From contig CAITKP010000037.1 of NCBI GenBank assembly GCA_903892995.1, forward strand, positions 62,001 through 126,000: a DNA stretch of 64,000 bases, read 5' to 3'. Made by a program: the position numbers and the translations under genes. Shown piece by piece: positions 57,362-60,470 of the stretch. The notes under the pieces were generated by a model that saw only the letters and a program-made list of their open reading frames with translations, searched no databases and had not been told where the DNA came from. The first letter of the stretch is position 1. The number at the start of each line of letters is the position of its first letter. This DNA is from an uncultured Campylobacterales bacterium (lineage in GTDB: Bacteria > Campylobacterota > Campylobacteria > Campylobacterales > Sulfurimonadaceae).

Positions 57362-58633
57362 ATGAAAATACACATCGATCTAGACTGTTTTTTTGTCTCA
57401 GCCCAGCGCACACTTGATAGTTCACTTTTACACAAAGCAGTGGCAGTAGGTGGAAGAAGTGATACACATATATTCTCAAAAAACTCCAAAGATCAGGGGG
57501 TCAATTTCGTTAATGCAGGTTCATTTGTTTCCACTTTTTACCAAAACTATGAAAAAAGAGGGGATGATCTGCAAAATTTTATCGATGCTGATGGTCGAAT
57601 TCGAGGAATATTGACAACTGCAAGTTATGAAGCGAGAAAATATGGAATAAAAACCGCTATGAGTATTAATGAAGCTCTAAAACTCTGTCCACATCTCATC
57701 ATAAAATCCCCAAATATGGCTTTATATCAAGAGCTTTCTCATAAATTGCATCTATTTTTACAAGAGCAACTTCCACTTGTCGAGCAAGCAAGTATCGATG
57801 AGTTTTATGGTGACATCACAGGTTGGATAGCCGATGAAGATGTTCCTGCGTTTATCGATTCACTACGCCATAAAATACAAAAAAAATTAAACCTTCCAGT
57901 TTCTATTGGTGCAGCCAACACCAGATATATCGCCAAACTTGCGACTGGTGAGGCAAAGCCCTTTGGATGTAAAACTATCTACCCTTGGAATTTTGATGAG
58001 TTTGTAAACCCTTTACATGTAAGCAAATTTTCAGGGATTGGCAGAGCTATGATGCAAAAGCTCCAAGAGGTTCAAATAACGACATTGGGAGAATTGCGAA
58101 AACGAAAAGGAACACTCCAATCATGGGGGCCCTACGCAAAGGAACTCTACAAAAGAGTCAATGGAGAGAGTGACGCGCATATCTCTTTAAAAAGCGAACG
58201 TAAGTCTATTGGTATATCTCGCAGCTTTGATCCTGTTTTTGAACGCCATGAGCTTAAAAGAAGAGTGCTCATCCTCTCAAGGCATCTGCTTTTTGCCATC
58301 CAAAAACTCAAAGTGATTCCCACAACTTTTTCTCTCACAATCGGTTATGAATACCAACAAAAGTCTCACATATCACTTATAAAAAGAAAAGAGTTCTGTG
58401 AAAAAGAGTTCAAAGATTTTTGTATCGCCCTTTTTCATGAAGCAGACAAGCAAAAACGCTTACATGTAAGCTCTCTTTCCATCATAGCCTCAGACTTTAC
58501 ACATATCTGCCATAGAGAGCTTTCTCTTTTAGAAATGGAAGATGACAAAAAACTGCATCATCTCACAAAACAAGCTCAAAAAATAAGAGAAAAGTATGGC
58601 TTAGGAGCATTAAAATGGGGAAGTGAGATTTAA
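57362..58633 (+). CDS. Y-family DNA polymerase (DinB-like) with insertion
   Basis: A 423-residue translesion polymerase. Catalytic carboxylates are kept: IDLDCFF (D6, D8) and SIDEFYGD (144-151, normally SIDEAYLD). TASYEARKYGIKTAMS matches the fingers. Between AVAVGG (residue 31) and RGILTTAS (81) there is an insertion of about 48 residues absent from E. coli DinB, and SAQR replaces the usual A-V-E after FF. Helix-hairpin-helix (SKFSGIGRAMMQKLQ) and little-finger domains follow. Palindromes at 58013 and 58460 encode L-H-V. Confidence 0.83.
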   Translation: MKIHIDLDCFFVSAQRTLDSSLLHKAVAVGGRSDTHIFSKNSKDQGVNFVNAGSFVSTFYQNYEKRGDDLQNFIDADGRIRGILTTASYEARKYGIKTAMSINEALKLCPHLIIKSPNMALYQELSHKLHLFLQEQLPLVEQASIDEFYGDITGWIADEDVPAFIDSLRHKIQKKLNLPVSIGAANTRYIAKLATGEAKPFGCKTIYPWNFDEFVNPLHVSKFSGIGRAMMQKLQEVQITTLGELRKRKGTLQSWGPYAKELYKRVNGESDAHISLKSERKSIGISRSFDPVFERHELKRRVLILSRHLLFAIQKLKVIPTTFSLTIGYEYQQKSHISLIKRKEFCEKEFKDFCIALFHEADKQKRLHVSSLSIIASDFTHICHRELSLLEMEDDKKLHHLTKQAQKIREKYGLGALKWGSEI

Positions 58634-58937
58634 AATTAGTTTTTTTATGAACGACTTGTATTCACATCCTTATTTAATTGCAACACAATTGCAACATTAA
58701 ATCTTTATAATTGTATTTAAATAGGTAACTTTTGCAAGTAAAGAACTATTTATATTTCTCGGCAAATTGACATAAGGATGATGAAAAATTAAATGATTAA
58801 TAATATTTTAATATTAAATACGATAGAGAGAGAGAGAGACGAGATAATTTTGATAACAAATATCAATTTATAAGCCTTTCAAACTTCGTTATTTCTCACT
58901 GTAACATGAACTATACTAGTGAGCAAGGAATAATGGT
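58634..58937. other. 304-base AT-rich gap with simple repeat and BLUF-gene promoter
   Basis: No gene is seen; the longest frame with ATG is 17 codons without a ribosome site. It contains a direct repeat (TTGCAACACAATTGCAACA region near 58678-58696) and a pure (AG)7A tract at 58825-58839. An inverted repeat, CTCACT (58895-58900) and AGTGAG (58918-58923), encloses a possible -10 TATACT (58912-58917) just before the BLUF gene. Confidence 0.55.
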
Positions 58938-59342
58938 ATGAAAAGTTTAATTTATAGTAGCCACGCTTCAGAAGACACCGATTTAAATGTTTTAGTAGAT
59001 ATCTTGACCATTGCAAAGAAAAAAAATGAGAAGCATGGCATTACAGGTATGTTGATTTTTGATGGAAAAATATTTTTACACTATATTGAAGGTGAACCGC
59101 AGAAGGTAGACCAACTCTATCATAATATCCAGCATGACTCTAGACATCATTCTCTCAAAATTCTAGGAACACGTCTTCATGAGTATAGACTTTTTAAGGA
59201 TTGGAGTATGGGATATATGAATAATTCAAGTCAGATTTTAAAAACATATGAAAAAATAACAGGAAGAATGGAACCAGACATAAACGCTCTTGATTATCGT
59301 CAAGCTCAATTATTGATCTCGAATCTTTCAAAGATAGTGTAA
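58938..59342 (+). CDS. BLUF-domain protein lacking the photoactive glutamine
   Basis: A 134-residue single-domain BLUF. Flavin-pocket positions align with AppA at a constant offset of 15: Tyr6 (Y21), Asn30 (N45), Trp89 (W104) and Met91 (M106). The residue equal to AppA Gln63 is His48 (FLHYIEG instead of FxQxLEG). RHHSLKILG and DWSMGY are normal. BLUF domains sense blue light by Gln rearrangement, so signalling here must differ or be lost. There is no output domain. AAGGA lies 8 bases before the ATG. Confidence 0.88.
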   Translation: MKSLIYSSHASEDTDLNVLVDILTIAKKKNEKHGITGMLIFDGKIFLHYIEGEPQKVDQLYHNIQHDSRHHSLKILGTRLHEYRLFKDWSMGYMNNSSQILKTYEKITGRMEPDINALDYRQAQLLISNLSKIV

Positions 59343-59443
59343 CTTTTTTCTAACGCAGTAAAAAAATAAAAGAAGCGTAAAATACCTATTTCAATCAAAG
59401 AGTATTCAATGATGAAACTATATTTCATCATTGAATCATTAAA

Positions 59444-60442
59444 TTAAACTAAAACAGCTTTTCTCTCACCCGCTTTTATTTCGCCGATGTGGTAGCTTCC
59501 CGCAGCTTTTGCAAGAACTGTCTCTACATTTTCAGGACGAACAACCAAGATCATTCCAACACCCATGTTAAATGCTCTAAACATCTCTTCACGCGCTACA
59601 TGTTGTCCGATAAGATCAAAGATAGGAAGGGTTCTAATGCTCTGCTCTTTTACTTCTGCCATCAAATGTTCAGGCAATACACGAGGAAGATTTTCAACGA
59701 TTCCGCCACCTGTGATATGCGCAAGTGCGACTATATTCTCTTTAAGTGCTTTAAATGTTTTTACATAAATATTTGTCGGAGTTAAAAGAGTTTCAATAAG
59801 TGGTTTGCCATTAAAATCATCCTCAAACTTCATGCCCATTTTTTCTAGCAAAACTTTTCTTGCAAGAGAAAAACCATTTGAATGCAGTCCTGAACTTGGA
59901 AGTGCGATAAGTTGGTCACCCTCTTTTACAAGTGCCACGCGATCCATCTCACTTTTCTCAGCCACACCCACAGCAAAACCAGCAAGATCATAATCATCTT
60001 CACTGTACATTCCAGGCATTTCAGCTGTTTCACCGCCGATAAGCGCGCATTCAGCTTCGATACATCCAGTCGCAATCCCGCTCACAACAGCAGTTGCTAC
60101 TTCCACTTCAAGTTTTCCAGTCGCATAATAATCCAAGAAAAATGATGGAGTTCCAAAGTTACAGATAAGGTCATTTACACACATTGCTACAAGATCGATT
60201 CCTACAGTGTTGTGGATTCCAGAGTCAATAGCGAGTTTAAGTTTTGTACCAACACCATCCGTTGCAGCAAGCATTACAGGCTCAGCATACCCTTTTGGCA
60301 ACTCAAATGCTCCAGCAAATGAACCGATTCCACCAAGCACACCTGCAACTTTTGTAGATTTAACTAAAGGTTTGATGTTCTCGACAAAACTGTTCCCTGC
60401 ATCAATATCGACACCAGCGTCTTTGTAGCTTATTTGACTCAT
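59444..60442 (-). CDS. purM: Phosphoribosylformylglycinamidine cyclo-ligase
   Basis: About 332 residues from ATG 60442 (MSQISYKDAGVDIDAG), with CAGGAAT upstream; a longer frame adds 8 non-family residues. PurM makes AIR, the imidazole ring step of purine synthesis. Motifs: GGIGSFAGAFELP, LAATDGVGTKLKLA, IGGETAEMPGMY, ITGGGIVENLPRVLP. It lies near coaE and dapF as in Campylobacter. Confidence 0.95.
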   Translation of the reverse strand: MSQISYKDAGVDIDAGNSFVENIKPLVKSTKVAGVLGGIGSFAGAFELPKGYAEPVMLAATDGVGTKLKLAIDSGIHNTVGIDLVAMCVNDLICNFGTPSFFLDYYATGKLEVEVATAVVSGIATGCIEAECALIGGETAEMPGMYSEDDYDLAGFAVGVAEKSEMDRVALVKEGDQLIALPSSGLHSNGFSLARKVLLEKMGMKFEDDFNGKPLIETLLTPTNIYVKTFKALKENIVALAHITGGGIVENLPRVLPEHLMAEVKEQSIRTLPIFDLIGQHVAREEMFRAFNMGVGMILVVRPENVETVLAKAAGSYHIGEIKAGERKAVLV

Positions 60443-60470
60443 AAATATTCCTGTGTGAAAGTTCAAAACT

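Follow-up and report, generated by a model that had tools for sequence, protein, structure and literature searches.

The window (the whole stretch of DNA that was analysed, 64,000 nucleotides long) encodes a short BLUF protein in which the switch glutamine of BLUF proteins is replaced by a histidine, His48. This is a genuine but rare variant of a known protein kind, differing in a single residue, and our analysis leans, with a little over even confidence, towards a light-blind, flavin-bound protein whose photocycle is lost or crippled, and which would be a constitutive or decaying flavoprotein.

The BLUF protein and its flavin pocket

The gene (identified by its ATG start, PF04940, the predicted model and Foldseek) and the codons of the residues discussed below (assigned by alignments) are located as follows.

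58938..59342, + strand: standalone short BLUF protein, 134 amino acids
58953..58955, + strand: Tyr6 codon (AppA Tyr21), kept
59025..59027, + strand: Asn30 codon (AppA Asn45), kept
59079..59081, + strand: codon CAC, His48 replacing the switch Gln (AppA Gln63, Slr1694 Gln50)
59136..59147, + strand: Asp67-Ser68-Arg69-His70 codons, of which Asp67, Arg69 and His70 are invariant columns, kept
59202..59210, + strand: Trp89-Ser90-Met91 codons (AppA Trp104, Met106), kept

The open reading frame is intact, with a clean start, and its product matches the whole Pfam BLUF profile (PF04940, 4.4e-28, profile positions 1-92 of 92) with 97.7 bits, against a curated cut-off of 25 bits. This is the sole Pfam domain found, which makes the protein a short BLUF without an output domain: residues 1-92 form the BLUF domain, and they are followed by C-terminal helices at residues 97-108 and 120-133. 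Sequence matches in the PDB include Slr1694 (3.5e-14), Tll0078, bPAC, OaPAC, AppA, BlrB and BlrP1; in the match to the AppA entry 2iyg, chain residues 18-108 pair with query residues 3-93, with equal lengths and an offset of exactly 15. Judged by its AlphaFold model (pLDDT 91, pTM 0.85), the protein has a true BLUF fold of the short PixD/PapB-like kind. The closest solved structure found by Foldseek is that of Slr1694/PixD (2hfn, TMq 0.91, E 4e-14), and both this protein and Tll0078/TePixD (1x0p) share the fold over the whole length (TMq 0.91, rmsd 1.8-1.9 Å), as well as the Tyr, Asn, Trp, Met and the Arg-His pair. They differ from the window protein, at about 31% identity, in having Gln50 where it has His48.

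The original prediction, that four pocket residues (Tyr6, Asn30, Trp89 and Met91) keep the AppA spacing and that the equivalent of AppA Gln63 is a histidine, proved right in every detail: all four residues are present at the offset of 15 seen in the 2iyg match, and His48, encoded by CAC, pairs with Gln63 with no gap between. The alignments place no other glutamine in the pocket, and a misalignment hiding such a residue was rejected, the spacing between the position-48 column and the Trp being identical in all loci. An alignment of 22 rows (A3) has 14 invariant columns, and in the Gln48 column the window protein is the sole exception; the protein retains all 14 invariant positions, and His48 is the only break among the family-conserved columns. 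It lacks the switch glutamine (AppA Gln63) by which canonical BLUF proteins are recognized. Since the 14 other invariant positions are all intact, the flavin pocket looks preserved, and FAD is probably still bound.

Origin of the gene and of His48

The BLUF gene lies between dinB and purM, in the following arrangement (gene names from sequence).

57362..58633, + strand: dinB-type Y-family DNA polymerase, left flank of the insertion
58634..58937, + strand: 304-bp AT-rich leader (25% GC) from dinB to the BLUF gene; with the BLUF gene, the stretch absent from the congeners
59404..59436, no strand: perfect 14-bp inverted repeat with a 5-nt spacer, in the gap where the BLUF and purM genes converge
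59444..60466, - strand: purM, right flank of the insertion

Convergent dinB and purM genes lie end to end (1-100 bp apart) in 6 of 6 congeners, without a BLUF gene; in the window they are separated by about 0.8 kb, where the BLUF gene sits. Among the eight genomes of the genus, the window's genome alone has a BLUF gene; BLUF is present in 20 of the 228 genomes of the family and in 11 of 399 evenly sampled genomes of the order (one of the 11 below the cut-off). The simplest reading of this distribution is a gain of the gene by the window's species between dinB and purM, with repeated loss as the alternative. Composition (GC 32% for the gene and 36% for the window; GC3 28%, with 26-40% in the neighbours) is uninformative on horizontal transfer. 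The inverted repeat is likely a shared two-way terminator of BLUF and purM. A promoter scan of the leader gave no site above chance and none better than in shuffled sequences, and no c-di-GMP gene, kinase or regulator (by gene names from sequence) is adjacent to the BLUF gene in the window.

The histidine protein is the single BLUF of its genome, and a peptide-pattern search of genome contigs with the protein itself found no relatives. Whether the histidine is conserved in the phylum had been proposed as a check. It is real in the window protein and it is not conserved: 28 of the 29 other Campylobacterota BLUFs have Gln at the switch column. The tree places four Gln BLUFs (L016-L019) as the sister group of the window protein, with moderate support (90/67), and all five sit in a well-supported clade of ten members, nine of them with Gln. 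These sisters have the same length and C-terminal helices as the window protein and 44-48% identity to it, but they carry the switch glutamine as CAG or CAA, where the window gene has CAC. Because the sister BLUFs have Gln with these codons, the simplest history is that one base change produced His48. The adjacent codon also differs from those of the sister genes (TGY to TAT, Cys to Tyr). The branch of the window protein is of ordinary length (0.56, median 0.52), and pairwise dN is below dS where dS is computable, although dS is saturated and says little on the last branch. The possibility raised against the original prediction, that the histidine is a single-strain change, thus largely applies: the gene occurs in one species of the genus, its sisters have Gln, and histidine elsewhere behaves like isolated changes at the tips.

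The one exception among the Campylobacterota BLUFs, L024 (with L036, from Sulfuricurvum sp. C5_maxbin.024), is a second BLUF copy with His at the switch column, and a normal Gln copy lies in the same genome. L024 is also without Asn30 (Asn to Thr) and the Arg69-His70 pair (Arg-His to Asn-Gln), and its branch is long (1.53). By its sequence it looks like a decayed BLUF paralogue, possibly a flavin-free BLUF fold.

Histidine at the switch position across bacteria

A DNA motif requiring histidine at the switch position was scanned over some 85,000 species genomes (84,980). The motif retrieves the BLUF gene in 30 of 30 loci with an above-cut-off BLUF but misses BLUFs departing at F86, W89, M91 or in spacing, so that all counts are lower bounds. 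The scan returned 15 stretches. Fourteen are BLUF-like and come from Pseudomonadota, Bacteroidota and Sulfuricurvum; the remaining one (L039) is not a BLUF and was dropped. When either Gln or His was allowed, 398 genomes sampled from Pseudomonadota (the centre genome not counted) gave 104 matches, all Gln and none His, and 120 Hymenobacter genomes gave about 236 matches, two of them His. Gln homologues exist in related genomes, most clearly in Stenotrophomonas, with 24 of 26 identical residues in the stretch around the site. Of the 14 His genomes, 11 also contain at least one Gln BLUF paralogue; in the other three a single BLUF was read.

Eight of these 14 proteins keep all 14 invariant columns (six of these columns are required by the search motif itself, which leaves eight that carry information), which with the window protein makes nine intact natural His-BLUFs. 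Among the eight are proteins of Limnohabitans (L032), Robiginitomaculum (L040) and Sphingobium (L045). The other six have lost key residues, five of them flavin-pocket residues and the sixth the electron-donor Tyr, a sign of relaxed constraint. The tree requires at least four changes of state at position 48; as Gln sequences of other phyla are sparse in it, four is a minimum, and the apparent clustering of the His rows means little. A conserved His-BLUF class, with the histidine common to orthologues of several species, was rejected: the cases are single and scattered, and the sister genes of the window protein have Gln. The His-for-Gln swap is genuine, yet rare and scattered over phyla, and the evidence speaks against a conserved new sensor class.

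In an Alphaproteobacteria MAG (L100/L110) and in Hymenobacter amundsenii (L093/L105), His and Gln BLUF genes adjoin, within about 0.5-1.3 kb of each other, which suggests duplicated pairs in which one copy has lost the switch glutamine.

An EAL protein associated with BLUF in the family

Beside or near Gln BLUF genes of the family lie genes for an EAL protein with a conserved N-terminus, MxCxxCQTLP, in a region without a Pfam match.

L060:4726-5781, - strand: MxCxxCQTLP EAL gene
L061:4719-5774, - strand: MxCxxCQTLP EAL gene
L064:2456-3511, - strand: MxCxxCQTLP EAL gene
L063:10558-11625, + strand: MxCxxCQTLP EAL gene

This gene is present in all four genomes with the sister BLUFs L016-L019 (G050, G075, G078 and G081), and in three of these loci it divergently adjoins the BLUF gene. 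In the family, the protein occurs in 19 of 228 genomes and in 10 of the 20 with a BLUF (hypergeometric 1.4e-7, a value that ignores the relatedness of the genomes); within one genus alone (g16), five are shared of seven and seven, the genus size being approximate. No match to the protein was found in the window's genome, where other EAL-like proteins are present (one was seen). The arrangement resembles PapB-PapA of Rhodopseudomonas palustris, where a short BLUF and an EAL phosphodiesterase are separate proteins (PMC8846402): PapB, like the window protein, is a short BLUF without an output domain, and the Gln relatives in the family stand divergently beside an EAL gene. It differs from the window's genome, where the associated EAL protein is absent, and from the window protein, where the glutamine is absent. 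The BLUF and the MxCxxCQTLP EAL protein of the family are candidates for a light-controlled c-di-GMP phosphodiesterase pair, and their association suggests that light controls c-di-GMP in the group.

Discussion

In canonical BLUF proteins, light makes an electron and a proton pass from the Tyr to the flavin, with the Gln relaying; the Gln then rotates or tautomerises, so that C4=O gains a hydrogen bond, and removal of the Gln blocks formation of the signalling state (PMC3915823). AppA Q63L is photoinactive (PMC4780082), and for Slr1694 Q50A and AppA Q63E a locked pseudo-lit state is reported (PMC6695109). In the open-access literature we found no Gln-to-His mutant of a BLUF protein and no spectrum of one, a weak absence, as most subscription papers fall outside that search. 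Flavin sensors that naturally lack the switch glutamine, with histidine among the natural replacements, are known among LOV receptors, which differ from BLUF in an unrelated fold and a cysteinyl-adduct photochemistry; there, a His in place of the Gln abolished the photocycle of YF1 and the light response of NmPAL, while Leu was tolerated (PMC9098866).

Because removal of the BLUF glutamine blocks the signalling state and these LOV variants with His lose their light response, light-blindness with flavin bound is the best reading of the window protein. It builds on the fold, the state of the sequence, the rarity and scatter of the histidine, the restriction of the gene within the genus and the absence of the family's EAL partner, to which it would add flavin binding, loss of photoactivity and a constitutive state. 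In the mechanism that we propose, the window's species would have gained the gene between dinB and purM, and a single-base change in one lineage would have turned the switch Gln into His in a flavin pocket that is otherwise complete and probably still binds FAD. The glutamine amide, the proton relay that rotates or tautomerises between Tyr, flavin N5 and C4=O, would be missing, so that the red-shifted signalling state of canonical BLUFs would fail to form or be strongly impaired; the protein would then be a light-insensitive (constitutive-state) partner-binding flavoprotein, or would be early in losing function. Several points weigh against this reading: histidine both donates and accepts hydrogen bonds and has two neutral tautomers, which makes partial function possible; the rest of the pocket is perfectly kept on a branch that is not unusually long, which argues against long decay; and eight of the 14 other His-BLUFs likewise keep all 14 invariant positions. 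The original prediction had offered light-blindness, redox sensing or another photocycle; the literature mutants make the first the most likely of the three, and no direct evidence was found for the other two.

We regard it as unlikely, at roughly one chance in five, that the gene is non-functional or nearly so, as a recently gained orphan without a partner whose decay starts at the critical site. The missing EAL partner gene, the presence of the gene in one species of the genus only and the further key residues lost in six other His-BLUFs are all in keeping with this. The intact frame with its clean start and likely shared terminator, the retention of all other conserved residues, and the pairwise dN below dS (for what saturated dS can say of the last branch) speak against it.

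Slightly less probable still is a protein that remains a photoreceptor, with the His48 imidazole taking over the switch between Tyr6 and the flavin (by a flip, a tautomer or a water relay) in a weaker or shifted photocycle. All other photocycle residues are kept in the window protein, histidine arose repeatedly at this one site, with an intact pocket in eight other proteins, and LOV receptors free of Gln can still signal with other replacements (PMC9098866). Against it stand the specific failure of histidine in LOV, where leucine kept the response (PMC9098866), the halt of signalling-state formation on removal of the BLUF glutamine (PMC3915823), and the failure of the scans to find any conserved-His lineage, such as a working alternative switch should have left behind. 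Given the intact pocket around His in eight other bacteria, an altered photocycle (in shift, lifetime or a stable flavin radical) supported by the imidazole is conceivable; that such His-based hydrogen-bond switching is natural and has occasionally been favoured is a more doubtful step again. Whether the canonical Gln rotates or tautomerises is still debated, and natural His-BLUFs with an intact pocket are ready-made test proteins from living bacteria, nine of which make the test direct: if they are photoactive, models needing the glutamine amide are wrong, and if they are not, they show how blue-light sensing gets lost.

A dark flavin redox sensor, in which FAD near Tyr6 and His48 would report redox state and not light, is improbable. 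The flavin pocket is retained, and soxYZ-like sulfur-oxidation genes (by sequence) lie about 4.5 kb upstream of the BLUF gene, but they share no operon with it, no redox-specific feature and no evident partner among the neighbours was found, and the absent Gln is the only point in its favour. A base-calling or assembly error hiding a true Gln is the least credible reading, for although a single codon of one genome, one base from CAA/CAG, is concerned, the neighbouring codon also differs from the sisters, the frame is otherwise clean, and independent His-BLUFs in isolate genomes make the state biologically possible.

Probable exposure of the group to light

Blue-light sensing had been called notable in a dark-living sulfur oxidiser. 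That description is now doubtful: photolyases occur in five of the eight genomes of the genus (the window's genome and four of its seven congeners), so the group probably meets light. In the window's genome (G000), the gene is located as follows, on contig 26, a different contig from that of the BLUF gene.

L069:3424-5714, - strand: photolyase, directly beside a DUF523/DUF1722-like protein

A photolyase adjoins the Gln BLUF locus L061, and the BLUF neighbourhoods of G060 and G075 hold a photolyase together with a DUF523/DUF1722-type protein. The pair in the window's genome is the same pair that neighbours the Gln BLUF genes in L061 and L062.
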